From Cinnamomum chago (lineage: Eukaryota > Streptophyta > Magnoliopsida > Laurales > Lauraceae), in NCBI GenBank assembly GCA_038049695.1, contig CP142461.1:40039501-40103500 (forward strand): 64,000 nt of DNA, given 5' to 3'. Each line of letters starts with the position of its first letter. Within the stretch, counting starts at the first letter, position 1. Below are positions 6,931 through 31,329 of this stretch, piece after piece. The notes beneath the pieces were generated by a model that worked only from the letters and a program-made list of their open reading frames with translations, was not told the DNA's origin and made no database searches. The translations under genes and the position numbers were made by a program.

Positions 6931-6993
6931 GTTGCTAATTTTTAGCACTTACCTCCTTGCTTTTCTCTTCTTTCCTCTTTTGGTTTGCTCTCT

Positions 6994-7003
6994 TCTATAA
7001 AAG
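6994..7003 (+). promoter_or_regulatory. TATA box of the antisense gene in the Tat element
   Basis: TCTATAAAAG lies 122 bp upstream of an ATG (7125) that starts an exon with a good donor. A transcript start near 7030 would leave a leader of about 95 nt. Spacing and sequence match a plant TATA promoter, but no transcript is known here. Confidence 0.6.
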
Positions 7004-7134
7004 CAAGTGAGGTGGGATCTCTTGCTTTTGTTGTTTTCTTTTTTTCCAGAAGTCTTCAAGAGTTGCTCCAAGTGCAAGAGTTCTCCTTCTTTAAGAGTCT
7101 TCAAGTTCTTCTTCTTCTCCATCCATGGCTTCAA

Positions 7135-7137
7135 GTA

Positions 7138-7168
<31 letters not shown>

Positions 7169-7884: not shown

Positions 7885-8971
7885 GTGGTCCTTCCAGAAC
7901 AGACAAGGGTAAAGATCCTATCACAAGCGTACCTCATCGATCTGCGCAATCTTCTAATCCAGCCGTCCAGCAGGCCTGGGAGAAGGTGCAATACGTCGAG
8001 CAGCACCTCGAGGAGTGTGACTCCCTCAATAGAGAGGAGGCGCGGCAGGCACTGATTGCTCGCAAAGGAGAGGATTTCTATAAGATCATGGTAAGCAGCC
8101 GTCCCTGGGTGATGGAGGATCAGAGGGTGTTGCCCAAGCCAACCTTCTTCTTTGGTGATGCAGCCCCAGCCGATATGACGTATCAGAGGAGATGCTTCCA
8201 GTTTTCCTACACGGTTGATGGTGTGAAGAAAACTGTTGCCACCCGATCGACTTTTGATCGTACTATCTCGATCATGAGTCTCTCTCCCACGTGCCCGAAG
8301 AGGGAAGATCCTCCAAGATGGGTGAAGAGGACCAACGTGGTCAAGACCGGGGTTTTCATTGGCAGTTCTCCTGGACATATGGAGAAGTCGCCTGCTGACA
8401 TGGACATCTTGATGCCGGCCAGCAACTACCAGGGCGCAGATTATCCATCAGTTGATTTGAGACCGATGGGCCTTGGCATCTTCAGTGGTGATGGTAGCAA
8501 CTGGGTGAAGCCTTTTCGACTCCGCGGCCGCTTCAGTGCTGACTCCGAGTGGAAGTCTTGGACTGACCATATCTTGTTTGTTGGGGGCGCCATTTTGAAG
8601 GAAGCCGGGATCTTTGATGCGGTCCGTGCATTTAGGGAGACCGTGATCTTTTCCGACAAGGCCTTCATGGCCATGCTTGAGTCATTCCTCCCTCAAACCA
8701 ATACCTTCATAGTGACGAATGGTGAGATTGGTTTTTCTCTGAAGGAGTTGAGTGCCATTACCGGGTTGCCCATCCTTGGGGAACTCTATGAGGAGTTCAT
8801 GCCGATTGACAGCGTCCTTGAGGAGAGGTCAAAGGAATTCAGGCTTTTATACTTTCAGCTCATCGTCTTCTACGATTTTTTGAAGGAGAAGGAGGGCTCG
8901 AAAGTAAGGTCTAGCAGCTGGAAGAGTTTCGGCTCTTCTTTTCTCAGTTTCCTTGACAGCAAGGGGCCTTC

Positions 8972-10724: not shown

Positions 10725-10725
10725 A

Positions 10726-11340
10726 TCTCCCCCTTTGCAATTTGATGGCAACTTACTCATCATTGAAATTACACACTCTGTCTTCAGCTCCCCCTCAGCT
10801 GGACAAGTCTTGAAATCTTCTTCTTGGATGCTCCTTCTCTTAGCTTGGGCTCTTGGGCTCTTTTCTTCAATCTTCTTGATGCTTGGTGCTTGATCATTCT
10901 TCAAGCTTTCTTATCATCTTCCTCTCTATGGCCAAGCATCTTCTTTAGCTCCAAGCTTTCTTTCTTCTATTTGCTCTCCCCCTTTGACCATGCTTCTTTC
11001 TCCTCTTGAGAACTTGAAAGCTTTCTCCCCCTTTGATGGATAGGAGATCTTCGAGTACTTGAACTCTCGAACTCTCTCCCCCTTTGAAGAGTAGGAGATC
11101 TTTGAGTCACACTTGAACTCTCTCTCCCCCTTTGACATTAAATTGCAAAGGTACCTACACACATGAGACAAGAAGAATACCTTTAGTAGCACCTGTTAAC
11201 AAATGTAATCGAAAATGACAAACATAACAGGCTATCATGTATGTAAGTTAACTCTAAGGGCTCATTAGCATTCCAAGGGTGAATTTGATCAAAACTAATT
11301 CTTCCTACGAAGGTTTACACTCCCCCTCAATCCATTCTCT
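10726..11340 (-). promoter_or_regulatory. Polypurine tract and further PPT-like motifs of the Sirevirus
   Basis: On the minus strand the tract AAAGGGGGAGA abuts the 3' LTR (plus-strand TCTCCCCCTTTG at 10726). Similar CTCCCCCT motifs recur near 10790, 10976, 11026, 11079, 11135 and 11321. Multiple PPT-like motifs before the 3' LTR are a known Sirevirus trait. Confidence 0.8.
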
Positions 11341-13058
11341 TCTTTTGTCAAGCTTTTGACAAGATATAACTATTAGATTCAAGAAGTAGATGGTTTAACC
11401 AAGTGAGGGTTAACTTCAAGGAAAGGATTAGATTCATTTAACTATAAAGCTCATATGATCAAATTACCAAAAGAGAGCTAGGTCTAATGGGAGAAGCAAT
11501 CATGGATATCAATTGAAATAAACATATCAATTGAGATTAAAGGATATGACTATTAACATAATCACTCTAAAATGGATTTAAAAGTATAACTATTATGAGA
11601 AATCCAAATTAGAGCTATCCATGATGCAATAGGGTTTACTCAAACATAGCATCAATCAATATAACTTATGAAAATCATATGCTATGTAAGTTTTGAAATC
11701 ATTTCATTCAAACAATAAATATGACTATTAATGTGCAAGAATGAGTGAAATGAAATTCAATCATGAAGCCAACCTCAACTAATAACCAACCAATATTATG
11801 AACATATAAACATGGTGGTCATGATATATACCTATATGAGCAAAAGAGGTGGCAACATGAGCATTATGATGCTAATGGTGTGAGACATGGAATGATCATA
11901 TTACTTATCAAGTTTAGTCCAATGCACACAAGGTCTATCACATACACAAGATAAGATATCAATTGGATATGAAATCAATGGAAAGTTATACCAAATGAAA
12001 CCAATTGAATGTGATAACATGAGTAAAAGCAAGGATGTGATAAACTACCATCAAGCATCATAAATGCATATTCATCACTTTTAATGATATTCCTAAAGAG
12101 CATAGTGATGAGCAAGGCAAATTGCAATGCAAAAGGATAAAGCTTTGTAATGCATGCAATTTCCAAAGTGTCTAGATCATATGAATTCAACACTAAGAAA
12201 TCCATCAAACAAGAGATATAACTATGAAATACAAGTAATGGATTTCAAAAAGGTTCATATGATCAAGAACACTAATATGAGGTTGAAACATGTATAAGGA
12301 TGATATCAAGAGAATACACATGAATCAACATCATAACCATCCACAAAGAAATGACTATTAGGCATAGAGGATGGATTTGGGTTCTAGTATGGTTTTTACA
12401 AATACTACCAATATCACAACCATACATGGAACCAATTGTCATTTGCATATAAAAAGAATAACTAAATAAGCAAAGATGCAAACAACATACATTTCCATTT
12501 CTAAAGATAATACAACCAAAAGAAAAGGAAATGAGAATCATGGAACATGCTTTGATGAATCTAACTAATGAAGTTATAGAGCATTTCCAATCAATTTTCA
12601 ACATGTATATTAAAAGATATAACTTAATTGAAACACATACAAGTTGAATTTTCAATACAATGATTTTCCATATACAAGTATAACTTAGAAGTCCATGGAA
12701 AAACTTGAATTGAGTCAAATCATTTGTTCAAATAGTCTTACAAATGATTCAACAACAATTGATCATGAATAAATCTAGCTATGAAAGCTTTTAACATCAC
12801 AATCAATTAATCATGTAAAGAAATGCAATGCAAGGCATATGAGTGCAAAAAGCAAATCAAACATGATGAAATTATAATCAAGAGATTTTGAAAACCATGA
12901 AGTGTAACTTAGAATGGTGTATGAAAACAAAATCAATTGATCATAAAAAAACAATGCATCTTAAGAAATGTAACTAAGAGAGAACAAAATGCAAAGCAAC
13001 ATGACCAACAAAAGGATTTAACTTAAAAAGCATAGGTTGGTCAATGAGGTCCAAGACC
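10738..13058. other. Non-coding AT-rich internal region of the Sirevirus
   Basis: No pol-like protein is seen on either strand. The sequence is AT-rich and carries a loosely repeated ATAACTATTA-type motif (for example near 11366, 11546, 11585, 11727 and 12225), whose spacing is irregular. ORFs here look spurious. Confidence 0.7.
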
Positions 13059-14615
13059 CTAAGGTTTGACTAGGTAAATGACTTTAGGAATCCACCTAAG
13101 GTCTTGGGAGGGTTGAACTTTGAGGTCTATTTTGGGCTTCTCACCAACTATAGGAGATTTAATTTGATAAATTTTCAATTTAAACTTATCACCATGATAT
13201 TTAGATTTTACTAAATTTGGCTTAGAATGGTGATTAGTCTTTTGAAGTTGGTGAGTTTGATTCTTAGGGGATTGCTTCACTTTTCTTTTCTTCTTACTTT
13301 CTCCCTTTACTTGACTTTTGAAATTTAGATTTAACTTTGTAAATTTCTTCAAAAGTTCTTTTATGTTTTGACTTAAGGGAGGTAGGTTGAGAAGCTTTTT
13401 GTTAATAGATTCTTTGATTTTTGGTTTAACTTGTTTAATCCTTTTAGAATCTATCTTGGGAGACTCCTTGTTAATTGGTTTCACTTGTTTAAGCTTTATG
13501 GAGTCTTCCTTGGTTTTTAGTGTCTTACCCTTCAAGTTTGATTTTCCATTTTTGAGTTCAAAGATGGGTTTGGACACATTGCTCCTTCTTAGTTTGCACT
13601 CAAACCTAAAGTGTCCTTCAATGCCACAATAATTACATTTAGACATGGGCAAAGAAGTGTGAGTGCTAGAGAATGAGGACTCACATTTCACAAAAGTGTT
13701 GGTGAATTTAGGGTCATAAGATATATTCCTATTAAATCCAATACCCGTCCTATCTCCATGAGATTTACCCAATTTGAATAATTTTTCAAGTTTCTCTTCA
13801 CTTTGGGTAAACTTGCACTCATACTTTTGTTTATTGTTTTCAAGTTGAGTGACTTTGGTTATAAGGATTGAATTTTCATTTTTAACTTTTGAAAGTTCAT
13901 ATTCAATTTCCTTATATTTGCTTAGCTCTTCATTGGCAAGTTTTAATTCATGTTTAAGTTCATTAACAATATTAGATCCAAGTTCTTGTGATTTTAACTT
14001 ACTTTTAATCAACTTGGCTTCTAAGTTGTTAAAGTCTTTATCTTGTTTTTTAATTGTATCTCTTAGGTTCAAATTTTCATTTGTAAGCTCATCACAATTT
14101 ATCTTAATCTCATTTAATTCGTTTTGAGTATTAGATAAATTTTCCTTAGAGATAGTCAATTTAGATTCAAGATTGTTAAAGTCTTTATCTTGCCTTTGTA
14201 ATTGATCTCTTAGCTTTAAATTTTCCTTATTGACATTATCATAACCCATCTTTAATTCTTTTAGCTCATCTTGAATGTTAGATAGATTATTTAAAGAGAT
14301 CATGAACTTAGAGTCTAGGCATTTTATCACTTCTTCTTTCTCTCTAAGCTCATTTTTTGAAGAGTTTAGCTCTTTGGTTAGATTCATAGATTCTTCTCTT
14401 AAACTTTTGTTTCTTTTATCAAGCTTTGAAGATAATGTATATAATTCATTATAGGCTTGTTGAAGATCATCTTCATCATACTCATTTTCTTCCTCTTTTG
14501 AATCAAATTGATATTCATTTAATTTAGAGTTTGAATCTCCATAAGATGGAAGAATGAGGGGTCTAGAAGAATCTACAAAGTCTAGCCTAGTGGAGTCCAT
14601 TCTAAAGATTTTCAA
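13059..14615 (-). CDS. Gag-like protein of the Sirevirus: coiled coil plus CCHC knuckle
   Basis: This 518-aa ORF starts about 100 bp from the primer-binding site. It opens with an acidic stretch, then a long coiled coil (about residues 40-280, rich in N, L, K and E heptads), then a zinc knuckle CNYCGIEGHFRFEC (CX2CX4HX4C) near residue 330, and ends in a very basic Lys-rich tail. This matches the C-terminal half of Sirevirus/Copia Gag; the usual UBN2-type head is not recognisable. It is presumably an RNA-binding particle protein. It is the only protein in the element. Confidence 0.8.
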   Translation of the reverse strand: MKIFRMDSTRLDFVDSSRPLILPSYGDSNSKLNEYQFDSKEEENEYDEDDLQQAYNELYTLSSKLDKRNKSLREESMNLTKELNSSKNELREKEEVIKCLDSKFMISLNNLSNIQDELKELKMGYDNVNKENLKLRDQLQRQDKDFNNLESKLTISKENLSNTQNELNEIKINCDELTNENLNLRDTIKKQDKDFNNLEAKLIKSKLKSQELGSNIVNELKHELKLANEELSKYKEIEYELSKVKNENSILITKVTQLENNKQKYECKFTQSEEKLEKLFKLGKSHGDRTGIGFNRNISYDPKFTNTFVKCESSFSSTHTSLPMSKCNYCGIEGHFRFECKLRRSNVSKPIFELKNGKSNLKGKTLKTKEDSIKLKQVKPINKESPKIDSKRIKQVKPKIKESINKKLLNLPPLSQNIKELLKKFTKLNLNFKSQVKGESKKKRKVKQSPKNQTHQLQKTNHHSKPNLVKSKYHGDKFKLKIYQIKSPIVGEKPKIDLKVQPSQDLRWIPKVIYLVKP

Positions 14616-14695
14616 AAAAGCACAACTCTAGGGTTTTAACTCTAGGTTTTTACACCTAATCAAGAGTTCCAAACACTTGATCCTAAGGGATAGAG

Positions 14696-14713
14696 CACTT
14701 GTCTCTGATACCA
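14696..14713 (-). promoter_or_regulatory. Primer-binding site of the Sirevirus (initiator-Met tRNA type)
   Basis: Read on the minus strand, TGGTATCAGAGACAAGTG starts two bases inside the 5' LTR. Plant Copia elements primed by initiator tRNA-Met use TGGTATCAGAGC, so the first 11 bases match. Confidence 0.9.
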
Positions 14714-14715
14714 AT

Positions 14716-16468
14716 TGAAAGTCCACGAGGATCCTAACCCTAGAGGGGGGGGTGAATAGGGTGAGCTACAACTATGACTAATTATGACCAATTTTAACTT
14801 CTTAGCATAAACTAGTCACATGTGATGATTAACAAACAAAATGCGGAAGCTAATACAAATACAATCACCACATAGCATGCACCACAACACCAATGTTTAT
14901 AGTGGTTCGGCCTCAATGCCTACATCCACTACCGGCTTGTGAATCCAATCACCCCACCGGATTTCCACTATTTATGCTTTTAACTAGGCTAAGCAATAAC
15001 CCTTACAAAATGCTTTTTAAAGGCTAAGCAATAACCCTACAAGATGCTTTTTAAAGGCTAAGCAATAACCTTACAAGATGCTTTTCAAAGGCTAAGCAAT
15101 AACCTTACAAGATGTTTTTCAAAGGCTAAGCAATAACCTTTACAAAGTTGATTTCTCAAAGAAGGTGTCTTTCCAAAAGATCACTCTAAGAGATTACAAT
15201 TTAAGCTCATATGAAATTGCCTCTTGAATAGGCTAATATGAAAGTTTAATACAAATTACAAACATACACTTAAAACAAGCTAAAGTGTGTGCACAAGTGT
15301 ATGAGTGTGTTTCTTCAATCAATCTTAACAAAGAAGCTCTTAAATGAATGCATGATGCATTTTAAAATCAAAGCTTATAAAATGATGATTGAAGAGAAAA
15401 CTAATCACATGTGAAATTCAAACAACTTTAATAAATGAACTAAACAAGTTGTATGAATGTAAAAGTCTAAGAAAGCATGTGATTTAGTTAAGAGAGTTTG
15501 CAAACTAATCTAATTTACCAAGGAAGATATTGAGTTTGCAAAACAACTCTTTATAGGCTTGAAATCATGCATAAATGAAAATACCAAGGATTTGAACATG
15601 CATGAATTTCATTTGAATGGAAATCAAAATAACTTAGAAGATGTACCTTTTAAATACTCATGAGTTTGATTTCCAAATAGCCCTCTAGCCTTTCCAACTT
15701 CTTCCCCTTTCTTTGGCTCCAAAATGCTCTCAAAAGTTCATAGTTCAAGCCTTGAAAAAGGTTGGAAATGAATGGACTTTATAGCCAAAAAGTTGCCAAC
15801 GGCTAGTTCTCGGTCGACCTAGACACAGGTCTCGGTCGACCGAGAAAGCACAACGGTCATATTTCTGACCGTTGGCCTGAAACAGTTCAAAAACTGTCCA
15901 TTTGCCCTGCAGTGTTCTCGGTCGACCGAGACACAGGGCTCGGTCGACCGACGACACTGTCGGGCGAGTCCCTGGGCCAAAATTCCAACTTTTTCCATTT
16001 TCAAAGTTTTTCTTTGGTGGATCTTTTGGCCACTAAATCAAGCTTAAATAACATGTTTTAAGGTATTCTAAGATGTTTAAAAACATGAGAAACACAAAGC
16101 CTAAAAAGATTCACAAGATTAAAACCAAAGGCTAGCTTGATTTGAATACAACTCTTTTCAAATGAAATTGCATACAAAATGATTCTTTTTGTGAAGAATG
16201 TATGCAAGACTTAAACCTAAATACACAAGATGATTTTCCAAATGTAGTGCACAAGGAAATAGGTTTTCAAAAGAGTTTTGGGTTCTAAAACCAATGCATC
16301 CAAGTTTAAAACCAAAACATGCATAAAACAAAAGCTTTTCCAAATCTTAAAAGCTATGCATGGGTAAAACTAGATTTCAAGATATTTTAAATCAATGCAT
16401 GTGTGTGAATTCAAATGATGCCAATATGCAAATGCATCCACCAAATTGCAAAAACAAAATACCTAACA
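14716..16468 (-). repeat. 5' LTR of the Sirevirus (right copy)
   Basis: It is nearly identical to 8972-10724 (about two base differences seen). It carries the same 34-bp tandem units (about 14985-15144) and palindrome cluster (15808-15952). ORFs in it duplicate those of the left copy and are not genes. Confidence 0.95.
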
Positions 16469-19400
16469 CCTTCTACCAGTATGTCCAGGGAGGAAAAGAA
16501 TACTGTGGCCATGCAAGAGGAGCTGAAGGGTTTCTTTGCAGGTACCAGTAGTATTTGTTCTGATACCGCACTGCGGAGAGATCTTGCTGTTTACCTCACA
16601 TATTGGCTTGGTGAGGCTATTTTCACTGGAGGAGATGGGACGCACATCCGGCCGCATTGTATTTTTCCGGCTTGTCAGATGGCGTTTGGAGAACAGCTAG
16701 CTTTGGTGCCAGCTTTATACTCCTATTTGTGCACTGAACTGCAGGCAGCTGCTTTCTTGGTCCGGCTTGGGCAACCCATGAACAGGGTATTTTCCGCCCA
16801 TATTTTCTATTCGTGGTTTGTATACCACTGTCCCGGCTTCCATCGGCTGGGTGTTGCGCAGGACGACGACCCTTTGATGATTCGATTGGCTAAGGGAAAA
16901 GCCGTAGTCGAATCTCTTTTGTTTGCCCGCATGAGGATCCGACGATTCAGAGACGTCGAGATGGGGCAGTCTTCAGTGAAGCTTTCTCCGGAGTTGCGGA
17001 AAAAGGCTTTTGATTTTGGTGCCTCCCGCGACTCTACCAGGGCAGGATCTGGAAGGCACTACTCCTTGACGAATGCAGAAAAGGAGTGGCTTTTTAGCAT
17101 ACGAGTCGGCACGATGGTATATCGTAGACATCTTTTTGTGGATATCCAACCGTATGTGCCTTCCCGCTTTGCGCTGCAGCTGGGCTTTTCTCAAGGCGTT
17201 GTTGGAGCGCCTTCAAGCATGGTGAAGCGCTTTGGAAGTTTGCAGGATGGGAGAAACACATGGGCTTTCTATAGTGCTGAGGACACTACTTCCATGATTT
17301 CCTATCCTGTACTGCCGACTTCCCGGACTGCCGGTTTCATGAAGTGGTTCGTGGAGAGCTTCATGGCATACCGGGGTCTTTCCAAGAGGGAGCTAGATGT
17401 GAAGCTGTCATCTGGAAAGGGCCTTGGAAAATTAGATGGCGTCCGGTGGGAGGAAGTTTGGGCCTTCCTTTCCGGAGAGAAGCACAAGATAGGCTTTCTC
17501 GGTGACCAGGGCGTCATTGGCTCTGAGGCTGCTCGGGAAATACTTGATGAAGCTATAGAGCAGCTAGAACAGGAGGAAGCCGAACTTGATGCTTGGATGC
17601 AAGCCGCATAGAGGCGAGCTTCCGTGGAGTCTACTGGCAAGAGCAGGCCATCCAGTGAGGAGTCAAGCGAGAGACCAGACTCTGATGATGGGGCAGGTTC
17701 TTCTAAGAAGAGAACTCGCCGAAGTAAGAGGAAGAGGAGTCAGCATCACAATAAAGACTCTTCTGATAAAGAAGTTCCTCTTACTATCAATGAGGAGGTG
17801 CCCGAGGTTGCTGAGGAGCCTCCGGAAAAAAAAGAGCCGAGAAGAAGATACCGTTGGTGGAGGTATGTTTCCACTTCTCTCTGTTCGCTTTCATGGTATT
17901 TTCCATATTTTGATTTGCTTCTGCTTCTGCTTTTTTTTTTTTTTTTTTTTAGCAGAAGAGGAAGACTTGGCGATCCCTGATGTTGTAACCGATGAGAGGA
18001 CGCCTGACCCTGTGGAGACGCCAGAAGACAAACCAAGGGACTCTGAAATGAATGCAGAATCTCCAATTGGTATTACTTTTTCCGCTTTCTTTTCTTTTTT
18101 GTCTGTGACTTGATTTGCTAACACACATTTTTTTTTTTGTATCAGCTGATTTATCACAGGATTCCAACGACTTTGAACCATCGATGGACGCCAGTGTTGA
18201 CGATATTTCCGATGAGTTCATGGAGAAGGAAAGCATTCCGCCAATCGTTGAAGAAGGTACTTTCATAGTAATAACCCTGATAGTGATTTTTAACAGGATC
18301 ATATTCATACCTTTTTGTGTTTGGCAGATTTTGAAGTGACAGAAGAGAGTCCATCGCTTCCTTCAGAGCCAGAGCCAGGGATGCCAGAAGTTGACCCAGT
18401 AATTGGGACTCCTCCAGCCAATTCTGACGCAGCAGAGGCAAGACCTCATGTTAAGATTCCTTCTCCAGCGGCCCCTATTGGAAAGTGTTCTGTTGTTACT
18501 CTTCCGATGGGACATGACTTGGGCAGCCAATCGACAGAGAAGGATGAGTCTTCATCTGGCCCATCTATTCAGTATGCGAAGAAGGTGGTGATGCGGGTTT
18601 TGAGTTCTTGGATTGAGACCCTCCTTTCTGGACACTTGGATGTTGCACGTAGCAAGATTCCGCATGTGAAGGAGATCCTCAAAGATGCTGAGGAAGATAT
18701 TGGTCTGGATGTTACGGACGCCCGGGCGATCGTTGATAGGATCATTGCATTAGGCGACAGGTGGTTTGAGACCATCAGCTATCCTGATGACCAGTTCTTC
18801 CAAGAGATGTTCCTGAACCCTGCTGAGAAGGCTCAATCGGAATTGAAAGAGACTGCACAGGGCAGGAAGCAGCTGGTTCGGGAGAGGAACCGAGCGGAGT
18901 TAGACATCATCAGGCTGCAGTATGACCTTAGCATCCTTGATGGAGAGGTTGAGGAGGCAAGGAAGCATCTCGAACACTTAAAAGCCCAAGTCGCCAATAC
19001 GTGGACCGCCATAACAGAGGCTCGTGACAGGGAGAGTGCTTTGATTTGCCAAGTTGCAGAGGCCGATCAGATTCTCAATAGGAAGGCTAGAGAGAATGAA
19101 CGATGGCAGACTGCTCGGGATAATCTTCCTGGTGTAGCAGAAGGGATAGAGCCTTCTCCAGCTACTCATGGCAGATTCTTGAAGAAACGTGCCTTGGAGA
19201 CTCTGACGGATGAAGCCAAGAGTTTGCTTGAGGAGCTGAAAGCTTGGCTGGAGAGCATTTTTGGCTGAGGCCCTGTTTTTTTTTTTTTTACAGAAACTCT
19301 TTCTCTCTTTTTATATACCACATGTATTTTTTTTTGTATACATTTGTAGTGCTTGTGAACACTTTTCTTTTCTTCTTTTTTTTTTGGTACCACATGTATT

Positions 19401-19514
19401 TTTGGTACTTTTTTTTTGTTTTCCCTACGCTCACTCAAATATTGTGATTAAAGTGATTGCTAAATGGGATGTGATCAAAACTTTGTCATTTTGTGAGAAA
19501 TCTTTTGACAAATG

Positions 19515-20105
19515 ATTGTTTTGGCATGGGAGCCAGTTTTTGAGACATGTTTTGGCATGGGAGCCAGATTTTGTTTACGGCATGAAAGCCAATTTTTGGG
19601 TGGCATCTATAGCCGGATTTGGGTTTATGGCATGAGAGCCAAAATTTTGGATGGCGTGGAAGCCGAAATTTTGAGGTGGCGTGGAAGCCGATTTTGGTGG
19701 CGTGAAAGCCAAATTTTGGGATGGCATGAGAGCCAATTTTTTTTTTTTGAGATGGCATGAAAGCCGAATTTTGAGGTGGCATGAAAGCCGATTTTGGTGG
19801 CGTGAAAGCCAAATTTTGGGATGGCATGAGAGCCAATTTTTTGAGATGGCATGAAAGCCGAATTTTGAGGTGGCATGAAAGCCGATTTTTTGGAGTGGCA
19901 TGAAAGCCGGTTTTTGTGGTGGCATGAAAGCCGATTTTGGTGGCGTGAAAGCCAAATTTTGGGATGGCATGAGAGCCAATTTTTTGAGATGGCATGAAAG
20001 CCGGATTTTTTTTTTTGAAAACCGAATTTTGTTTTGTTGGCATGGAAGCCGAATTTTGATTTTTGGCATAAAAGCCGAGTTTTTGGCGTGAAAGCCAGGT
20101 TTTTG
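19515..20105. repeat. Array of GGC-N6-GCC mini-hairpins in the Tat element
   Basis: About 20 units of 20-30 bp have the form TGGCATGAAAGCCGATTTT, with variants CGTG and GAGA in the middle. Each keeps GGC and GCC six bases apart, so each can form a tiny stem. The same theme (GGCGTTTATAGCC) occurs three times in each LTR near 3538-3600 and 31606-31668. Long ORFs on the minus strand are by-products of the repeat. Confidence 0.75.
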
Positions 20106-20117
20106 GTTTTCAAAAAA

Positions 20118-20520
20118 TGCAAGTATCGACTAAAAGTCGCCTCCCTGCTGAATGGTATTGCAAGTATCGATGGAATGTCGCTTCCTTGCTCATTCGGTTG
20201 CGAGTATCGATGGAATGTCGCCTCCTCGCGGATTTGGGTGCAAGTATCGATGGGATGTCGCTTCCTTGCTTTTGTCTTCAAAAATTTTTTTGTTTTGTGG
20301 GTACCGATGGAATGTCGCTTCCCCACGATTTTTTAAGTTTGAGGTTTTTTCGAACCTTTGTTTTGTTTTTTGTTTGTTTTGAAATTTGGGTTGTGGATAT
20401 CAATTGGAACGTTGCGTCTCCACGATTTTTGAAATTTTGAGGTTTTGGAAGTATCGAATGGGGTTCGCATCCTTCCGATTTTGGGTTTTGCAAGTATCGA
20501 CTGAACGTCGCTTCCCTGCG
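20118..20520. repeat. Eight tandem hairpins with covarying stems (family H2)
   Basis: Copies start near 20119, 20160, 20200, 20240, 20297, 20394, 20450 and 20490. All follow one plan of 30-31 nt: a 5-bp outer stem, TAT (TAC in one copy), a 4-bp inner stem, a 5-6-nt loop, the inner stem strand, four bases, the outer stem strand. Outer stems are GCAAG/CTTGC (twice), GCGAG/CTCGC, GTGGG/CCCAC, GTGGA/TCCAC and GGAAG/CTTCC; two copies have one mismatch (GCAAG/CCTGC). Inner stems are CGAC/GTCG, CGAT/GTCG, CAAT/GTTG and CGAA/TTCG. Pairing is kept while sequence changes, strong evidence for a folded element. It lies between the antisense gene's stop and the end of integrase. Confidence 0.8.
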
Positions 20521-20899
20521 GTTTTTTGAAAAACCATTTTTTTGTTTAAAGACACGAGGGTCGTAAATTTTGACTCAAAACCATTTTGGTGGTAAAAGTC
20601 GGGGTGGACTAGGGCTGAAGTCCCTAGGTCCTGATTTTGTTTCAAACCAAGAATTTTGGGTTCAAGGATCGAAAATTTTGGTCAAGTTTGGGAAGAGGCT
20701 CCTAAACTTGGATTTTTGGATTTGCTTTTTTTTTTTGAACAATGAAACGATGAAAGAGACATTGTTTTGAGGGTTTTTTTATTTTTTTAGAAATTTCAAC
20801 AAGAGGATGAATATTCCAAAAGGAGTGGGTTTGAAGAGCAGATACCTGGGAATAGGCTTTGGCCGTGCAGGCGTCGCTCTGACCCGATGGAAGAAGCCT
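20521..20899. other. Non-coding segment after the hairpin array
   Basis: This T-rich segment lies downstream of the integrase end of pol. No conserved feature was recognised. Confidence 0.5.
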
Positions 20900-23800
20900 T
20901 CAAGGGTAGTACCGCTTCAAGAACTTTTCATTAATGGGCAGCATACATCTGTCACCCTCCATGTTTAGAAGAGTGTATGCACCGTTGGAGAAGACTTTGT
21001 CGATGACGAAAGGTCCCTCCCATTTTGGTTCAAATTTGCCTTTGGATTTGTGAGTAAAAACCATAGGTCTTTTTACTGTAAGAACCAAGTCTCCTTTTTT
21101 GTAGGCGTGTTGCCTGACCTTCTTATCAAAAGATCCTGCCATGCGTGCTTGGTAGAGTTCAATGCTTTGTAGAGCTTCGAGCCGTCTCTCGTCGAGGTTA
21201 TCCAGCTCTTGGAGTCTCAACTTGACATTACTTTCTTGAGTCATGTTATTTTGTAGAGATACCCTCAGAGAAGGAATTTGTACCTCTAAGGGCACGACAG
21301 CTTCACATCCATAGACCAAGGAGAATGGTGTGCTATGGGTTGGTCCTCGAACGGTAGTTCGATAGGCCCACAAGGCTTCAGAAAGCTTGTCGCCCCAGTC
21401 TCTTTTGTGACTAAAGACTATCTTTTTGAGGATTTTGCAGAGTGTCTTGTTAAAAGCTTCTGCTAGTCCGTTTGCTGCCGGATTGTATGGAGTTGAGGGA
21501 CAACTTTGGATTTTGTATTTATCGCAGAACCTGTAGAATCGGTGATCGCGGAACTGCGGTCCGTTATCATGGACGAATCTTTTAGGTATGTCGAAGCGAC
21601 AAATGATGTTGGTGCGCAAGAACTGAAGGACTGATGAGGTCTTCATTTCACTAAGCGCGAATGCTTCTGACCACTTGGAGAAATAATCCGTAGCGGCGAA
21701 GATGAAGCGATGACCTTTGCTTGATGGAGGGGAGATAGGACCTATGATGTCCATACCCCAGGCTTCAAAAGGCCATGAGATTGCTGTAGGATGCAGCCAT
21801 TCTGGAGGCATGTGGACATAATCTCCATGAACTTGGCATTGTTGGCAGCGCTTAGCAAATTGCATTGCATCAGCCACCATGGTAGGCCAATAATAACCTA
21901 ACCTTTTTATCTGATCGTAGAGCTTAGGGCCAGCCTGATGGGATCCACAAAGACCAGCATGGACTTCTTTGAGTGTTCCTTCAGCTTCTTGTTGTGACAA
22001 GCAGCGTGGAAGTACTCCGTTGTAGGATTTCCTATAAAGCATTTTTGAAGGAATATCCAAATGGAAGTTTGGGGCTCGTCTTTGGATGCTTACCCGTTCT
22101 TTTGGATCTTCAGGTAGGATCCCGAACATAGTGTAATCAATGAACGGATCCCTCCAGTCGCCGACCGAAGTTTGAAGGATAGAAATCCAACTTCCAACCA
22201 CCCTGTGGCATTCTGCAACTGCTTGATGTGTGTTGAGAGGAGGGAGGATTCTTCTTCCGCACACTGTAATTTGCATGTTTTCCCCTTCTTGGATTGCCAT
22301 AGATGCGGCAAGTCCAGCCAGGGCATCTGCACGAATGTTTTCACCTCTGAGGATGTGGGTGATGTGACAGATGTCAAACTTCTGCAAAAGTGATTGTGCC
22401 TTGTTGTAGTAAGGCAACAAATCAGGCTTTCTGACTTCAAATTTTTGATTCATCTGATTGACGATCAGTTGAGAGTCTCCGAAGACTTCCAGTATGGTGA
22501 TACCGGATTCAATGGCAAGTTCCAATCCTAGAATCAGGGCTTGGTATTCCGCTGCATTGTTTGTGCATGGTTCCAGTAGCGAGAAGGCGTGTGGAATCAT
22601 GTATTTGTCGGGGCTAACAAAGAGAATGCCAACTCCCGAGACCGGCTCTCTTTTCTCGTTTGTTCTGGTTGCACCATCGAAGTACATGTGCCAGGAAGCA
22701 CTTGGTGGGAAGGCCTCCACATTGTAGATGGATTCGTCTGGGAGATCATCTCTTAGTGGAGAATCTTCAGGCAACGGATGCTCCGCGAGAAAGTCTGCTA
22801 AAGCTTGGCCTTTGATTGTTTTTTGTGGTATATACCTAATATCAAATTGTGATAGAAGGATAGACCATTTTGCCAGTCTTGCATTGAGAGAACCTGCTTT
22901 CGTGACAAGGACCTTTAAGAGGTTGATCCTTGAGACCAGATAAACTGTGTTGGAAAGCAGATAGTGACGTAGCTTTTGTATGGCAAACATCACTGCAAGG
23001 CATTCTTTTTCGACTGGGGAGTAGCGATGCTCTGCACCTGCCAGCATACGGCTGAGGTAGTATAGAACCGCTTCTTTTCTTCCATCATTTTCTTATGCCA
23101 GCAGAGCGCCCAGAGAATGGTCGAGGGCTCTTGTGTACAAGATGAAAGGTTTTCCGGTGGTAGGTGCTGCTAACACTGGAGGTTTGGTCAGGTATGACTT
23201 GATATCTTGAAATGAGGCTTCACAGTCAGCATCCCAGACAAAGTCTACACCTTTCTTCATCAATCGGGAGAATGAACGACATTTTCCCGAAAGGTTGGAG
23301 ATAAACCGTCTGATATAGGCCAATCTCCCTTGGAGCCCTTTTAATTCTCTCAAGGTTCTTGGAGAGGGCATTTCTAGAATAGCCTTGACTTTGATGAGGT
23401 CAAGTTCTATTCCATCTTTCCGAACAAGGAATCCGAGGAACTTACCCGACGAGACGCCGAAGAAGCATTTTAGGGGATTCATTCGCAGTTTGTATTTGCG
23501 AAGTCGGAGGAATACTTCTCGAAGATCTTTGAGATGGTCTTCTTTTCTTTTGCTTTTGACGGCGAGGTCATCAACGTAGCATTCAACCGTCTTGTGTTGC
23601 ATATCTTGGAATATGTTCATCATAGCCCTCTGATATGTAGCGCCAGCATTTTTCAGACCAAATGGCATGACAGTGTAACAATACACGCCAAATGGGGTCC
23701 GAAATGAAGTATGCTTTTCGTCTTCAGGATGCATCTTTATCTGATTGTAGCCAGAGAAGCCATCCATGAATGTCATTCGCTCGAATCCACAGGTATTGTC

Positions 23801-26062
23801 AATCATAACCTCTGGTATCGGGAGCAGGAATTCATCTTTGGGGCAGGTGTTATTCAGGTCTCTATAGTCAATACAGACCCTAATCTGCCCATTTTTCTTT
23901 GTCACGGGGACAATGTTGGCCAACCATTCAGGATGCTGTTCCTCACGGATGAAGCCGACGCTTTTGAGTTTCTGAACTTCTTGTTCAATTTTATCCATCA
24001 CATCTGGACGGAATCTTCTTTGGCCTTGTTTAACAGGCTTGATATTTTTTTGAAGATTGAGTTTGTGGACTGCTATTTTCGGATCTAAACCGGGCATTTC
24101 AGCATAGGACCATGCAAAGCAATCAACGAACTCACGAAGAAAAGCGATATACTCGGGTAACTCATCATCCTTTATATTCTTGCTTATGAATACAGGACGC
24201 GAGTTATTTGGTGTTCCCAAGTCTATCTTTTGAACAGGATCCTCTGTTGGAAGATTCGAGGGTGGTTCCTCCACAATGTTTTCGGAGGCCTCCAACTCAA
24301 CGAAACCTTCTGGTGTTTCAACAGCATTTCCTTTCCATGGGTCTTCTTGATCAGCAACCTTCTCAAGGCTCGCTATGAGATAGTCCCAATCGCCTGCTGT
24401 TACCGGGTCGAAGTATGGTACTTCTGCTGTAGACGAGGGTTCTTCTGGGTCAGAATCCTGCATGTCTGTATCATCGGACAATTCCTCCATATCATTGGAG
24501 AAATCAAACCAATTGGAGGGGCTTCCCGGATCTTTGTCTGGTGACTCTTCAAAGAGATACCCAGGGAGATCGATGTCTTCATGGACTGGAGCTATTGGGG
24601 CTTGGTCAACAAACTGACTTCTAAACCTTTGCGTTAGCTGTTTTAGAGGGGCGTCAGGATCGAACCCTAACCCATATGAAGACTTTTCTATATAGCCATA
24701 GAGTCTCCAATCTTCCAGCTGATGTTTGGCCAGTACGGGCTCCAATGGTGTGAGAATACCATGGCCTTCCCCCAAGCCAACTAGGTTTTGAGCATCATAT
24801 CCCATCTTCTTCATGATAGCCTGTGCCACAGGACTATACAGAGACAGTAGAGGCATACCTTTGTTTTGGAAAGGTTCAAGCAGGGATTTTGATGAAGCAA
24901 CACTCGATCTATGGAAGAAGATCGGTTTTTCTTTAGATGATATTGCCGGAACAACAAAGGAAGCAGATGCAGGATCTTCTACATCAGCAGGTGTCTCTAT
25001 TGGAGTAAGAGCGGGCTGAACTTGTTGAGTATCATTTTGGCTTGACGAAGTATCGTCTTCTGGATCTGAATCCGAATCTGTATTTTGTTTGATGGACAGA
25101 TAAGAGACAACAAATTTGCCCCCAGACTTTTGTTTTACCTTCTTCCCTTTAGTTGTAATGACCAAAGGTTTTGGAGTCTTGAGGGAGACTACGAAAGGAG
25201 ATTGACTGCTCTCTTCGGGTTTTCCAGAGGGTTTATTTTCTTCCGGTGATTTTTGAGGAGCCTTGCCTTTATCTTTAAGGAGATTTTTGGCGGGAGACGT
25301 CATTTCCTCTGTTTCTTTTTCTCCTTCATACATCTGAGAGTCTGCAAAGTGGACTTCTTTCCCTTTGAAAGGTTTTCTATCCGCAAAGACTCGATGTATC
25401 ATGCCATCGTTGCCGATGAACTTGATGCATTGATGTAGTGTTGAAGGAACAACTCCATTCTCGTGTATCCAGGGGCGTCCGAGAAGGATGTTGTAGCATG
25501 ACGGGGTTTTTATTGCATACATAGTGACTTCAGAGATAAGATCACCGATTTGCAATTTGAACCTGATTTTGTCGATGGGCCTTTGAGAATTGCCATCGTA
25601 TCCAAAGATAGATACATATGTGTGGCTCAGCTTGCTGGGCGGAATGCCCAACTCTTCGAGTGCCGAAGTGGAGATAAGATTTAGTGCAGAACCCGGGTCA
25701 ATCTGAATTCTGCACACCGGCATTTCCTTAATATATCCTGTAAAGTACAGGGGTCGGTTGTGCTTTGTCTCACCAAGCAGGAGATCTTCCTTTGTGAAGG
25801 CGATAGTCGCACTGGTTATCTTTTGAACCGAGAGACATCTACTGCAAGATCCCTCAATTTTCTTCTCTTCTCCTTTTGAGGAAATTTCTGCATTTTTGAC
25901 CCAATAGTCCATTTCAATTTGGAAGACTTGCGGGGCATGTTTGTCAACATCCTCATTCAGTTTTTGCAATTCTGAAATGAGATTATCACGAGTGCGTGGA
26001 GACATTCGTAACAAATCTAGGATGTGCAATCGTGCAGGTATGTGTTTGAAGTGCTCAACCAA
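20900..26062 (-). CDS. pol region of the Tat element: protease, G-patch, RT, RNase H, aRNase H, integrase
   Basis: Read on the minus strand, the parts in order are as follows. An aspartic-protease-like segment has IDPGSALNLIS. A G-patch-like motif follows (MKKMGYDAQNLVGLGEGHGI). The reverse transcriptase has IRVCIDYRDLN, PFGLKNAGATY and the catalytic YVDDL. A Ty3-type RNase H is followed by a second, archaeal-type RNase H (YFDGATR, NNAAEYQALILGLELA, GDSQLIVNQ, RADALAGLA). The integrase has an HHCC head and a DDE core (MDIIGP, VHDNGPQF, GLAEAFNKT). The second RNase H is diagnostic of the Tat lineage. The region is almost fully open, with about one break. Confidence 0.92.
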
Positions 26063-26266
26063 GTCATACTTGAAAGCCTCCTTGGGGTCTGCGCGTTCAT
26101 CATTATTGCCACTGGGGGCCGTTATAACATCTTTCCCAGAAGGGTTTGCATAAGTAAAGGAAGATGTATTGTAATTTTTATGGTAGTCCCGACCAGAACG
26201 GGTGCCTCTACCAACTTCGAGAGCTTCTTGAGAAGAATCTTCACTTGGAAGACTGTCTTCAAGAGG

Positions 26267-27208
26267 CTATCGTACTTCTTCCACTGGGGGTGTTCCTGCA
26301 GCTAAGCTAGTATCCTCAGTGATTGTGTTGCATGGAGCATTTTCCGGGGGTAAGTCCTGAACAGCTTCCTGCAACTTTTCTTCTTCGTCGACCCCTTCAT
26401 CATCCCCAGCCGGGTTTTCTTCATGATGATCAACCGGAAGGGAAGTGCATTCTGAAGTCACAGTCTCAGGTGATGAAACCTGAGAGGATGTTATCTCCGT
26501 GTAGGTCACGTGAGACAAGGTAGCTTCAGAAGATATATTGCTTGACGTCGCCGGAGTATAACTGATATCATCAGACGAGGCCTCGGAAGAGCTATGATCC
26601 TGAATTATAACATTACAGGTAGCTCGAGTGGGAGATGTTGCCTGCTCGGAGTCGGACTCTTCCTCGGATGTAAGAGGATCATCAATCCAACAATTTTCTC
26701 CATTTTCAGGAGTTAGGGGAGAAGGTACCTGAGGGTCTTCAGGGATGCCTGGCTCCGGATTGGGAGGAAGCTCGTTGACGCGGTCGCGCTCTTGTTCGAG
26801 AGCTAGACGCTGCAAGATCCTCGCATATTCTGCAAGACCAGGCATGGGAGCCAGGTCTTTTTCTTCATCATCTCCTTGTGGCTCAACATCGTTGATTTCC
26901 ACAGGATTGACGACGGGTGCTGGAATGACAGCATTTTCTTGTACAACCGCTTGGTCATCTTCATCATCAGACCAGGATCCTTGTGGCTGTAAGGGGTCAT
27001 ACCAGATTACTGGCATAAGATAAGTATCAGGGACCCACTCTTCATCAGAGAGGTATTCTCCTGTCTCAAGGGATTCTTCCCACTCGTCAGTGCCGTCGAA
27101 TCCGTCGTCGGTATCGCTGGACTCATATCCATCCATGGCGAATCCAACTGCCGAGTTGCAAGAGTATGATGCCCCCTGCGTGGCCTCTTCTTTCAGTTGA
27201 GGTGGCAT
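26267..27208 (-). CDS. Acidic linker protein segment between gag and pol of the Tat element
   Basis: About 313 residues, strongly acidic and Ser/Thr/Pro-rich, with no recognised domain. It lies between the gag region and the protease region on the same strand, as part of the long Tat polyprotein region. It may be a spacer; its function is unknown. Confidence 0.6.
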   Translation of the reverse strand: MPPQLKEEATQGASYSCNSAVGFAMDGYESSDTDDGFDGTDEWEESLETGEYLSDEEWVPDTYLMPVIWYDPLQPQGSWSDDEDDQAVVQENAVIPAPVVNPVEINDVEPQGDDEEKDLAPMPGLAEYARILQRLALEQERDRVNELPPNPEPGIPEDPQVPSPLTPENGENCWIDDPLTSEEESDSEQATSPTRATCNVIIQDHSSSEASSDDISYTPATSSNISSEATLSHVTYTEITSSQVSSPETVTSECTSLPVDHHEENPAGDDEGVDEEEKLQEAVQDLPPENAPCNTITEDTSLAAGTPPVEEVR

Positions 27209-27299
27209 GAAATCACTGAGTATGAATTTTCTTACCGCCTTTGAGGTCTTTGAAGCGGTAGAGGAGGCCTCTGCCTTTTCATCGACTTTGGGCCTTCTC

Positions 27300-29849
27300 T
27301 TACTTTTTGAGCTTGAAAAGGTGTCTCCTAGCCTGCCTTCGCTGTCGAGCTGTCGGCTTTGTCTTTACGATCTCCCAATTTTCATCTTCTAGGAGATCAG
27401 GGTGTACCCATAAGGGTTGTCCATCTGGAGTCGGGTAAGGAACCAGCCCCTCGGACGCTTCGATTTTATTTATCACCTTGAAGGAGGTAGTGATCTTCCT
27501 CTTTGGCGATTTTGATGTTTGTCCATACGAGATCATGTTGACGGAGGCGGACCCATAGTTTTTGTCGAAGGTGATGACTCCGTTTTCCCACATCTCGTTT
27601 ATCTTCTCTCTCACAACAAAGCATTGATTGAGAGGGTGTGACACCATCTAGTGGTATGGACAATACCGGGGATCGTTGGTTTTGCCAACATCTTCTGGCC
27701 TCTTTGGCTCAGGCAAGGTGAGCTTGCCATTTGCTATGAGAGCTTCAAAGATCTCGTCAACATCTTCGTCGAACGGGTATTTCTTCTCTACTCGCTCTCT
27801 GAAGGCTTCTGAGGGTTCAGGTCTTTTTCCGGCAGATTTGTTTTCAGCCTTTTTTTGTGGCTGAGGAGTTGACTTGGTCTGCACATTGAGGACCTCTTTC
27901 TTCTTTGGTTTAGAGGTTGCAATGGCGGTTGGCTCCTTCTTTGATGACTTCTGACTGTTGAGGTCTTTGATCACCGTTTCAGCCTCCATAGAAGCTTCTA
28001 GGAGTTCTCCCAAGTTCTTTGATTTGTTGCCGATGATCATGGAGCGGATTCTGGCTCTCATGTTATTTCGGCAGATGTCGACCAGCGACGCTTGTGGCAG
28101 CACATCGGAGCATTTGTACGCCATGGCTTTCCATTTGTGAATGAAGTCGTATGTAGACTCATTCTCCCCCTGTTTCAGGCTGCAGAGCTGAGCCATAGTA
28201 ACAGGATGATCCTCACCTTTGAAGTGAGTCAAGAAGCGTGTCTCCAGCATGGTCCAATTCTGAATGGAGTTCTCTGGAAGAGTGGAGTACCAATCAAAGG
28301 CCGTACCTTTTAGGGTGCTTGCAAAGAGGCGAATCTTGAGTGCATCTTGATCCGCAATAGCTCCCGTCAGGATCTTGAAATGGATCACGTGCTGTCTGGC
28401 TGAACCTTTCCCCGTATATGTTTGGAGAGTAGGTTGCTTGAATTTTGTAGGGAACGGGACCGAGTCCATCCACAAGGGATATGGTGGCTTGATCCCATGC
28501 TCCTTTAGCGTATCCTCTTCTTTTGCTTTGGCGAGGATATCGTCAACGTCCTTTTTGGTAAGGGCGCGTGACTCACTATTTTCCGCATTTTCTTCGTCGC
28601 CTTGATGGCTCGGAGGAGCTTCATTGTTTGGCGGACGTTGGATAGTGAGAAGGAGGTTTTCCATTAGGGCCTCTATTCTCTGCTGTCCTTGTTCCAGCTG
28701 CTGGATGCGTACAGCTACGTCATCATGTAGCGGAGGTTGCTCAGCATTTGTAACCAGGACGTTCACTCTTCGAGAGTCGAAAGAGGATACAGTCTTGGTG
28801 ACTGAGCTAGAGCTCATTCTTTTAGATGAAGAGCTCGAAGAGTGGTCACTCCGATGTCCTTGGCTTGAAGGAGCAGGAGAGTTTTCTTTATGTCTTCGTG
28901 TCCGGGAGACGCTGCGAGTCACTGGACGCCTGACATGGATTTTTGTTGCTGACTTCTGGCGTTTTCTGGTTTTGCCAACCATATGGACAGCAGCAATTTG
29001 GTTGGGTCTTTCTTTTTCAACCCATTTTTGGGAAACTTGGAGTGTAGGAGGTTGAGTCCTCAGTTTCTCTAGTCTCTTTTGTTGGTATGACGCGCGGCGG
29101 CGTGCTCGACGAGCGAGTTGAGCTTCGGTCAGCTCTGGCTGGGCCTTGACGATGAAGGATGTACTCCCTCTGGCGCAGCAGCCGAGCTTGTCTTCTTTGT
29201 AGTTAGGCAAGGACAGGATGCGGACCCGGTCCTTCGCCTGTTGCAGCGAGGCTTTGAATTGTGCAAGCTCGGCCCCTGTAGAGATGAAGGGTCGAACTGC
29301 AGTTTTGCAGGCCTTAGCAGACACTTGGGGAGGCCTGGTGATGTAGGATTTGATTTTTGGCTTGTAGGAACAAGCTGGTTGATGCTGAATTGGCCTGGGA
29401 GTCAGGTCAGAGATGGGTTTCTCCTCTTTCATGTAGAAGAGAGGGTAGAACCGGTTTTCTTTGAGCGGGGCCAGGTATGCTCGCTTGGCAGATGCTCGGG
29501 ACCTCCTTTGTTTTGGTGAAGGCCCTGGGGACCAAGTCTTGGGACGGACCTGGCTGTTTGCGGGCTGAGGCTTCGCGGGGGTCGCCTTTGGTGTCACGGC
29601 GATTGCACATTGGGAGGCGATTTTCTGCTTCTTAGCGGGAGCAGCCTGTTCTTCAGGAAGTGGGAATGGTCCCAACGTCCCAAAGAAAATAGTCCGGGGA
29701 GTCGAGGTCGACCCGAAGTTTGGTGAATTGTTGGTGGTGTTGACGCTGTGGCAACTAGCAGTGCGCTTATGAGTGCGCACATTCTGCTTCTGTTGAAGCA
29801 TCTGCTGGTGCTTTTTCTCGTCGAAGGTGATGGTCAAGGAAGCTGCCAT
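27300..29849 (-). CDS. gag region of the Tat element
   Basis: The protein starts MAASLTITFDEKKHQQML. It has a long basic, Ser/Lys/Arg-rich N-terminal part (to about residue 470), then a Retrotrans_gag-type capsid domain (with FKQPTLQTYTGKGS, AFDWYSTLP and ETRFLTHF, and QGENESTYDFIHKW). The C-terminal part carries CPYH and HPLNQCF, the Cys/His motif typical of Tat gag. It would form the particle and bind element RNA. Boundaries with the linker are approximate. Confidence 0.88.
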
Positions 29850-31308
29850 TGTTAGTAAACTTCTGAAACAAGACCAGATCCATTAGTAATCACAAGAATA
29901 TAATGATTATAAATGGAAAAAAAAAACAATCTATGGGTTTGCCTTTTCAGATCGCTCAAGGGATATGACCCAGGCGACGTGAGAAAGGCAAAAGCCATAG
30001 AGGGCACAATTGTTTTGATTGCAAGTATAGTGAGCCCCTAAATGAGCGTCCCAGTGACTGCTTGAAGCAATTGTAAACCTAAATTCGACTTATCGCGAAG
30101 CAGGTTGGAGTTTTACAAATGCGTCGGTCGCGAATACAGTAGACCCTGAAAGGGCGTACTAGCACCGCTAGACACAAATGCTGGAGATCGCATCCATGAG
30201 ATGGGATCCTCTGGTTTTTGAAATGTCAAAATGGATTTATCAAGGAGAGCATGTGGTATCCCGATCCAAAGACGGGCTCAATGATTTCTGCGAGCACCAG
30301 TACCCCGGAAGGAACCACAATTTCTCGGATCCGAATCCAAAATGACGAGAGTTTTTTTTTTTTTTTTTGAAAGGCCAAGATCAGGTCCATCAAAGAGAGC
30401 AAATGATGTTCCGATCTGAACACGGGCTCAGCGGATAATCGCGAGCACCAGTGCTCAGAAAGGAAGAGACCAAAATTTCTCAGATCTGAACCTAAAAATG
30501 ACGAAAGCTTTTTTTTTTTCTAAGATTTTCTTTTTCTTTTTTTTTTTTTTTGAAAATTTTAGTTTTTTTTTTTTTTTTTTTTTTTGAGATTTTTATTTAA
30601 AAGACAAGAGAGCACACATAGGCTTCCTAACCCGGTCTTATGAAATCACAATTGATAGAATTGCCCCCAGGTAAGGGTAGGATTACTTAATGAACCCGTT
30701 TGGAGGACCCTTGCCTCGAACAGTCAGGCTGTCTCCACACTCTGGACAAGGCTTTTCTTGAATCAACCGAGATCAAAGAACGCAGTTGGTTTGGCCTTAG
30801 CGGTCTATGTCTTTTTTTTTTTTTTTACTAGACTCATTGAAGAGAAGCAATGATCCAAAACCTTAGTCAAACAGGCTCAACATTTCTACAAGCGCGATGA
30901 ACGATAGGATAGGATCAAAACCTCTCAATTTTGAATCCAAAATGAAAAGTTTTGATTTTTTTTTTTTGAAATCTCTAACAGACTCATCGAAGAGAAACGA
31001 TGGCCCAATCCCCGATCCAAGCCGGTCTCAGCGGATAATCGCGAGCGCCAATGCCCAGAAAGGAAAGGATCAAAGTTTCTCAATTTTGAATCCAAAACGA
31101 GAAATCTGAACTTTTTTTTTTTTTTTGAAAAGAGAAAGAATGGAAATAGATTGAAAAAATTCGAAATTCCCAAAAAATCCTATCTCATGCGAAATCCAAC
31201 ATAGGCCACCAGCCAAAAAGTAGCTAAGGAATTTGGAAAAGAAACATAAGCAAAGATATAATATGCGAATATTTCAATTCCAAGCATCCAGTGTTCTCAA
31301 GTAAACGG
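29850..31308 (-). repeat. 5' leader of the Tat element with imperfect tandem repeats
   Basis: The untranslated region between the 5' LTR and gag holds about four imperfect repeats (30226-31130), each with text like CGGGCTCAGCGGATAATCGC and GAGCACCAGTGCTC, separated by poly-T runs. Dimerisation, packaging or translation signals would be expected here, but none was pinned down. ORFs in it are spurious. Confidence 0.65.
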
Positions 31309-31326
31309 GTCCCGCCGGGTGTGCCA
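31309..31326 (-). promoter_or_regulatory. Candidate primer-binding site of the Tat element
   Basis: On the minus strand, three bases inside the 5' LTR, the sequence TGGCACACCCGGCGGGAC begins with the TGG expected opposite a tRNA CCA end. The matching tRNA was not identified. Confidence 0.55.
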
Positions 31327-31329
31327 ACT

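Follow-up and report, generated by a model that had tools for sequence, protein, structure and literature searches.

Eight tandem hairpins with covarying arms beyond pol in a Tat/Ogre-like retrotransposon of Cinnamomum chago: a candidate cis-acting RNA element

The window, by which we mean the whole stretch of 64,000 nucleotides of Cinnamomum chago DNA analysed here, contains a Tat/Ogre-like LTR retrotransposon (Table 1). Self-blastn delimited a 5′ LTR at about 31328–34108 and a 3′ LTR at about 3262–6031, with 98.06% identity between them, and the termini, read from the sequence, are flanked by the target site duplication CTTCT. The pol region spans two frames, from 26062 to 20900, and its stop is followed by about 380 nt of sequence, the hairpin array that is the subject of this work, a T-rich array of GGC-N6-GCC repeats, and the antisense plant-mobile-domain frames. 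In the second part of pol, RVT_3 matches at 131–245, between RT_RNaseH (2–68) and rve (426–523), which is the order of Ogre and Retand, for which PMC6317226 describes a second domain of the RNase H type lying between RNase H and integrase. The antisense ORF at 16415–17611 holds a PF10536 match (E 1e-08, 35.2 bits versus a cut-off of 34.9), as does the extra ORF of Ogre-like elements, in which the same paper reports a plant mobile domain for 57% of Ogre elements. By domain order, size, and mobile domain, the sequence would fit the Ogre clade of Tat, and the placement of the hairpins in a Tat-class retrotransposon by an earlier note on this DNA is supported.

The two antisense pieces, at 7986–8993 and 16415–17611, are split apart by a nested LTR retrotransposon that sits in the antisense plant-mobile-domain ORF and shows CCTTC duplicated at both ends. 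The Tat/Ogre-like element was itself perhaps inserted in a Mutator-like element, with MULE/MuDR transposase domains at 36864–39136, and related 21-bp TTATCTGAGTT repeats flank it on both sides (2820–3226, 35932–36597, and 39186–39547). In addition, both LTRs hold a 20-bp mini-array, CGATTTTTGGCGTTTATAGC (3534–3599 and 31602–31667), on a similar GGC...GCC plan, as though one repeat type were common to the LTR and the 3′ region. Finally, the region 7300–7760 folds strongly (z down to −8.4), the sole inverted repeat there being a weak one (7184–7239, 71%) that adjoins T-rich low-complexity repeats.

Table 1. Coordinates of the features of the retrotransposon and of its hairpin array in the window.
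Feature	Coordinates	Strand	Remarks
Tat/Ogre-like LTR retrotransposon	3262..34108	-	Self-blastn; about 23 kb without the nested insertion
gag ORF, Retrotrans_gag	27648..29849	-	ORF and domain match
pol, first part: RVT_1 and start of RNase H	23093..26062	-	ORF and domain match
pol, second part: RNase H, RVT_3 (second RNase H-like domain), integrase	20900..23047	-	
Hairpin unit 8	20490..20519	-	First in sense RNA; outer pair 4 A.C on plus, G.U on minus
Hairpin unit 7	20447..20476	-	GGAAG/CTTCC on plus
Hairpin unit 6	20393..20423	-	31 nt; GTGGA/TCCAC; inner stem CAAT/GTTG
Hairpin unit 5	20297..20326	-	GTGGG/CCCAC; internal loop TAC
Hairpin unit 4	20240..20269	-	GCAAG/CTTGC
Hairpin unit 3	20200..20229	-	GCGAG/CTCGC; in-context formation just 0.33 on minus
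Hairpin unit 2	20160..20189	-	GCAAG/CTTGC; formed in context 0.96 on plus, 0.82 on minus
Hairpin unit 1	20119..20148	-	GCAAG/CCTGC; outer pair 4 A.C on plus, G.U on minus
Short GGC-N6-GCC repeats, T-rich spacers on plus	19553..20097		Fast-evolving; adjoins the hairpin array
Antisense reading frames	16415..19268	+	16415-17611, plant mobile domain (PF10536)
Nested LTR retrotransposon in antisense ORF	8972..16468		LTRs 8972-10724 and 14716-16468, 99.9% identical
Antisense ORF	7986..8993	+	End matches plant-mobile-domain profile positions 1-59, below the Pfam cut-off

The array comprises eight hairpins of 30–31 nt each, spanning positions 20119–20519, where the eight tandem units on a common plan described in the earlier note were located, with all the outer-stem sequences that it had listed present among them. 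Every unit combines a 5-bp outer stem, an internal loop with 3 nt on one side and 4 nt on the other, a 4-bp inner stem, and an apical loop of 5–6 nt. The internal loop reads TAT/CNTC on the plus strand and GANG/AUA on the minus strand; among 434 units collected from the genome (see below), the G, A, and G of GANG were found in 421, 431, and 417, its N was mixed (A 198, G 152, T 45, C 39), and the three bases of the AUA side were kept in 433, 433, and 431, a conservation that is partly ascertained because the model used to find the units fixes TAT and CNTC. The apical loop is pyrimidine-rich on the minus strand. Of the loops that had been called conserved, the internal one is so, apart from one base of its 4-nt side that takes all four letters, and the apical one is not, its sequence varying from unit to unit. 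A sequence-only model of the eight units, built without base pairs, recovered those eight in the 64-kb window and no further unit, the 5′ region included (next match, E 2.2). Rfam matches up to E 1 in the region 3000–34300 were limited to one of sub-threshold score, Xist_exon1 at 22183–22274, outside the array. A known RNA family was thus rejected, the array having no Rfam match at the gathering score, and this agrees with the earlier statement that no named RNA of this form was known.

Relatives were searched in one plant genome (1.06 Gb), where the core pattern of the hairpins matched 11,118 times (5,634 forward and 5,484 reverse), versus 40 times for the reversed pattern, and the strict integrase pattern of the family occurred 1,229 times. 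Among 100 integrase-motif matches listed of 3,955, 23 were family-type places, 20 of which were taken as relatives picked independently of the hairpins' own pattern (L059–L078). The proposal had been staked on the presence of the repeats in related elements, and hairpin units were found in 19 of these 20 loci, L076 being the one without them. No units were found in a further 20 Tat-like loci whose integrase motif is spelled differently (best E 0.38; search with model R1 plus a regular expression); these had been selected by hand, for diversity of spelling, out of the remaining 77 of the 100 listed. The array is, then, a family trait. The other loci were either the best-scoring ones (L001–L008) or fetched by the hairpin pattern (L010–L038), and both sets are biased towards hairpins for that reason. 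In all, there were 55 loci with units, with L009 and L011 left out as duplicates; the model gave 471 matches (167 + 137 + 167), of which the best 437 were used and the 34 weakest left out, and 434 units of length 30–31 (250 of them distinct) entered the per-pair test and the loop counts. The aligned rows showed 4–12 units per locus, a count that may be too low where a 1-kb fetch ends inside the array. No relatives came from searching viral and prokaryote genome contigs for the integrase, and a 17-base core was present in one contig among the viral contigs, a match that may be due to chance.

Two variants were seen among the relatives. A second subfamily (L061, L065, L067, L074, L077, and others) carries an extra unit between units 6 and 7, with a GCAAG outer stem and an ACAAGG-like apical part. 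In addition, unit 8 of several copies of this subfamily (L065, L067, L071, L074, and L075) has GCGAG/CCCGC in place of GCAAG/CCTGC, with pair 3 changed on both sides and the A.C of pair 4 retained.

The matching of changes across the stem that the earlier note had read in the arms was confirmed in the eight units, in which 70 of the 72 pair cells are standard (97.2%) and, for six of the nine pairs, one unit or more has both partners changed. None of 500 shuffles equalled these units in cells paired, in pairs changed on both sides, or in covariation score; the number of pair types was not raised over the shuffles (340/500), and sliding the partners by 1–3 columns brought pairing to 27–60%. A tree-based null, in which the observed substitutions were re-evolved on the units' own tree, gave five compensatory events versus 0.47 expected for the eight window units (p ≤ 0.001), and six compensatory branch events versus 0.54 ± 0.69 for the 39 variants present in at least two loci (p ≤ 0.001), whose 351 pair cells are made up of 308 Watson-Crick pairs, 24 G.T, 18 A.C, and 1 other. 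When all 250 distinct units were considered, compensatory events did not exceed the null (2 versus 1.22, p 0.36), possibly a result of decay fragmenting the signal, and Watson-Crick cells were still raised (1,801 versus 1,263 of 2,250). The per-pair tree-aware test on the 434 units was significant for pair 3–29 only (E about 0.05) and ranked pairs outside the structure second and third, with 5 of the 12 top pairs being structural; its weakness arises because most compensations are old differences between units and not between elements. The wider alignment that had been suggested thus brought little new pairwise covariation, and in this respect the support is weaker than the earlier note had it. 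Overall, compensatory pairing argues well for the whole structure and modestly for any single pair.

Genomic copies mostly appear decayed, and rare arm variants in them are seldom compensated (9 of 95 cells; by reading, 4 of 81 where outer pair 2 has become A), so that only differences which several loci have inherited can serve as evidence. On this same scarcity of compensation, DNA-level palindrome correction in genomic copies was rejected. CpG decay was likewise rejected as the source of apparent covariation, as the controls run do not account for it. By reading, 12 of 18 listed units showed the first inner pair C-G changed to T-A, and these were not counted as support because double CpG decay gives the same result and the search pattern demands a two-sided change. 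The G-C to A-T change in the inner stem of unit 6 could also be CpG-driven, and the C-G/G-C difference at outer pair 2 is of another type.

Conservation was measured over 25 loci at pol identity 0.80–0.95 (integrase identity 80–95%). Stems and internal loops were 0.93–0.95 identical, and codon positions 1, 2, and 3 gave 0.938, 0.961, and 0.767, with apical loops at 0.850, linkers at 0.873, and the AT-rich flank 20521–20788 at 0.913. At CpG sites, the fastest-decaying ones, identity to the window was 0.922 in stems and internal loops, 0.909 and 0.927 at pol positions 1 and 2, 0.697 at pol third positions, 0.878 in linkers, 0.749 in the flank 20521–20898, and 0.660 in apical loops. Units 1, 6, 7, and 8, which the fetch pattern cannot favour, reached 0.931 overall and 0.902 at CpG sites (22 of these loci). 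The neighbouring stretch 19553–20097, with about 20 repeats carrying GGC-N6-GCC (TGGCATGAAAGCC), drifts, with identity of 0.75–0.78 and, over the same 25 loci, CpG sites at 0.697, and 160-nt windows at 19600–19900 gave minus-strand folding z values of −3.0 to −3.9. In the motif-picked loci, 17 of the 19 with units entering the Wilcoxon tests, hairpins were more conserved than linkers (p 0.0067) and not better conserved than the AT-rich flank 20521–20788 (p 0.24); CpG values were 0.909 for hairpins, 0.881 for the flank, and 0.857 for linkers, and the contrast was clear at non-CpG G/C sites, with 0.932 for stems and internal loops, 0.774 for apical loops, 0.776 for linkers, and 0.869 for the flank. 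The constraint on stems and internal loops is close to that on the first and second codon positions of integrase, and the selected fold proposed from compensatory changes now has purifying selection on stems and internal loops behind it as well.

Regarding the strand on which the fold acts, the whole 411-nt array gave a folding z of −3.92 on the minus strand and +0.66 on the plus strand. The same analysis on all 19 motif-picked loci with units showed a mean z of −2.96 versus −0.23, lower on the minus strand in 19 of 19, and in-context formation was higher on that strand in 18 of them, with the outer stem formed above 0.5 in 81 of 148 units on minus and 41 on plus. This large in-context difference is likely due to the linkers, 53% T and 6% C on the plus strand and, consequently, A-rich and G-poor on the minus strand. 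Isolated hairpins of the 39 variants were slightly more stable on minus, averaging −8.16 kcal/mol versus −6.65 on plus, with lower energy on minus in 23, on plus in 15, and one tie. Some of this difference belongs to the element in general, whose overall folding is somewhat better on minus (mean z −1.54 versus −0.84), and by energy the array does not stand out from other 160-nt windows (z on minus −2.4 to −0.8, with sd 1.42). Units 1 and 8 are paired with one another in the 411-nt fold.

The wobbles point both ways, as the earlier note had stated. Its two outer mismatches, in units 1 and 8, are both A.C at outer pair 4 and become G.U on the minus strand; over the genome, this pair is A.C in 115 of 437 units versus 1 G.T, and in one common variant the A.C costs several kcal/mol on plus (−4.3 versus −10.9). 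For inner pair 4, on the other side, 172 of 437 units have T.G on plus, versus 5 with C.A; this wobble speaks for plus, and the pair, which closes the loop, has almost no effect on energy (−8.4 versus −8.3 in another variant). The opposing signs thus stand, and for the strand that had been left open folding favours minus; the acting strand is probably, by these predicted energies, that of the gag-pol genomic RNA.

A selected sense-strand fold is, in our judgement, the likely explanation of these results, and other readings were weighed against it. Selection may be unnecessary if slippage or abnormal strand transfer produced the repeats and reverse transcriptase, switching between the arms of an imperfect palindrome, matched them, a process that would generate compensatory changes by itself. 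Unit number does vary between loci, with the extra unit in one subfamily, and in PMC7004042 the tandem repeats of the Tat 3′ region, already known there, are ascribed to illegitimate recombination or abnormal strand transfer and hypothesized to be by-products of replication. However, such correction should make the internal loop complementary, and GANG/AUA remains asymmetric; moreover, the scarcity of compensated rare variants leaves no place for DNA-level correction after insertion, though correction may have acted during reverse transcription, and switching alone does not predict that stems and internal loop match the first two codon positions in conservation, with more drift in apical loops and linkers. 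We consider this origin fairly unlikely. Conservation as protein-coding sequence is highly improbable and was rejected on spacing: a 233-aa ORF on the minus strand overlaps units 1–5, but the spacing between units is mostly not a multiple of 3 (174, 118, and 90 for remainders 1, 2, and 0) and linker length varies (gap fraction 0.15).

The fold could also belong to the plus strand, within the 3′ end of the antisense transcript that encodes the plant mobile domain, acting for example in 3′-end formation or termination. The array does lie between convergent ORFs, T-rich stretches follow units 4–8 on that strand, and the T.G of inner pair 4 and the good in-context formation of units 2 and 5 there are consistent with it. 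Against this, the plus-strand z values and the 41 of 148 units formed are those given above, and the costly A.C of outer pair 4 is set against a gain from T.G that is almost nil; this reading appears unlikely, and termination between the two convergent units, one of the roles first suggested, is not supported because plus-strand hairpins are mostly unfavoured in context. G.T wobbles form in DNA too, so the strand evidence fits a single-stranded DNA fold during reverse transcription, or a DNA hairpin serving in pausing, strand transfer, or as a protein site, equally well, and cannot separate RNA from sense-strand DNA. None of the features seen requires DNA, though, and a double-stranded DNA site needs no varied-but-complementary arms, and we regard a DNA role as rather improbable.

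Macas 2009 reportedly described tandem repeats of the 3′ untranslated, hypervariable region in Tat/Ogre/Retand LTR retrotransposons. The array resembles such repeats in its place between pol and the 3′ LTR, beside an antisense ORF, and in its short, family-specific tandem units of variable copy number; it differs from them in that its stems and internal loop are conserved at about coding level and its arms covary, and it lacks, within this genome, their hypervariability. The function of Tat tandem repeats is called unknown in PMC11963269, whose main text contains none of the words hairpin, stem, or secondary structure; hairpin and secondary structure are likewise absent from the main text of PMC7004042. 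Among the titles and abstract openings listed by literature searches, which covered few subscription papers, no selected hairpins in Tat/Ogre 3′ repeats were found.

Among structured elements of retroviral genomic RNA that recruit an export protein, the closest likenesses are the MPMV/SRV constitutive transport element (CTE), which binds NXF1 and exports unspliced RNA, and the Rev response element (RRE); for the array, protein binding is putative. As outlined in PMC7551171, the CTE is a single 150–175-nt stem-loop with two internal loops, and the RRE is one 234-nt region with several stem-loops, for which cooperative binding of several Rev proteins has been suggested. The array has neither the size nor the two-loop architecture of the CTE, since it consists of about eight distinct hairpins of 30 nt, every one with a single asymmetric internal loop; it would work like the CTE or RRE but has another construction, and we do not assign it to either. 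Retroviral and Ty packaging signals, the latter not precisely defined, are similar in possible role; the array differs from them in lying in the 3′ part, with no unit elsewhere in the window, the 5′ region included.

As for the selected sense-strand fold, the best explanation overall, to which we give an even chance, is a structured RNA element that acts in cis from the non-coding 3′ portion of the genomic RNA. Each minus-strand hairpin presents an outer stem free in sequence, an asymmetric 5′-GANG/5′-AUA loop, and a short inner stem capped by an apical loop rich in pyrimidines, with the A-rich, G-poor linkers keeping the hairpins apart; within the internal loop, G.A pairs may form around an A-U, with the N flipped out. 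Separated repeat hairpins with a fixed internal loop and a free outer stem have the look of a multivalent protein-binding site, and that the repeats are such a platform, the reading we favour, seems to us evenly balanced. The copies might jointly bind one protein, which could be the element's Gag, the product of the antisense ORF, or a host RNA-binding protein, and the bound protein may mark the genomic RNA for nuclear export and/or packaging. That the job is specifically export or packaging is a tentative proposal, somewhat less probable than its opposite, RNA stability being another plausible job past pol, beside packaging and the nuclear export of unspliced RNA. More doubtful still is the full proposal, a new repetitive RNA class in Ogre-type 3′ repeats in which GANG/AUA protein-binding hairpins serve as export or packaging signal.

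To our knowledge, few cis-acting RNA elements of plant LTR retrotransposons have been described. If the proposal is true, the array would provide the first function for Tat/Ogre 3′ repeats and a plant counterpart of the retroviral CTE/RRE. It offers a testable handle, with a defined motif, a defined strand, and a mutate-and-restore prediction, and a tandem-repeat stretch usually taken as hypervariable filler may hold a working RNA element.
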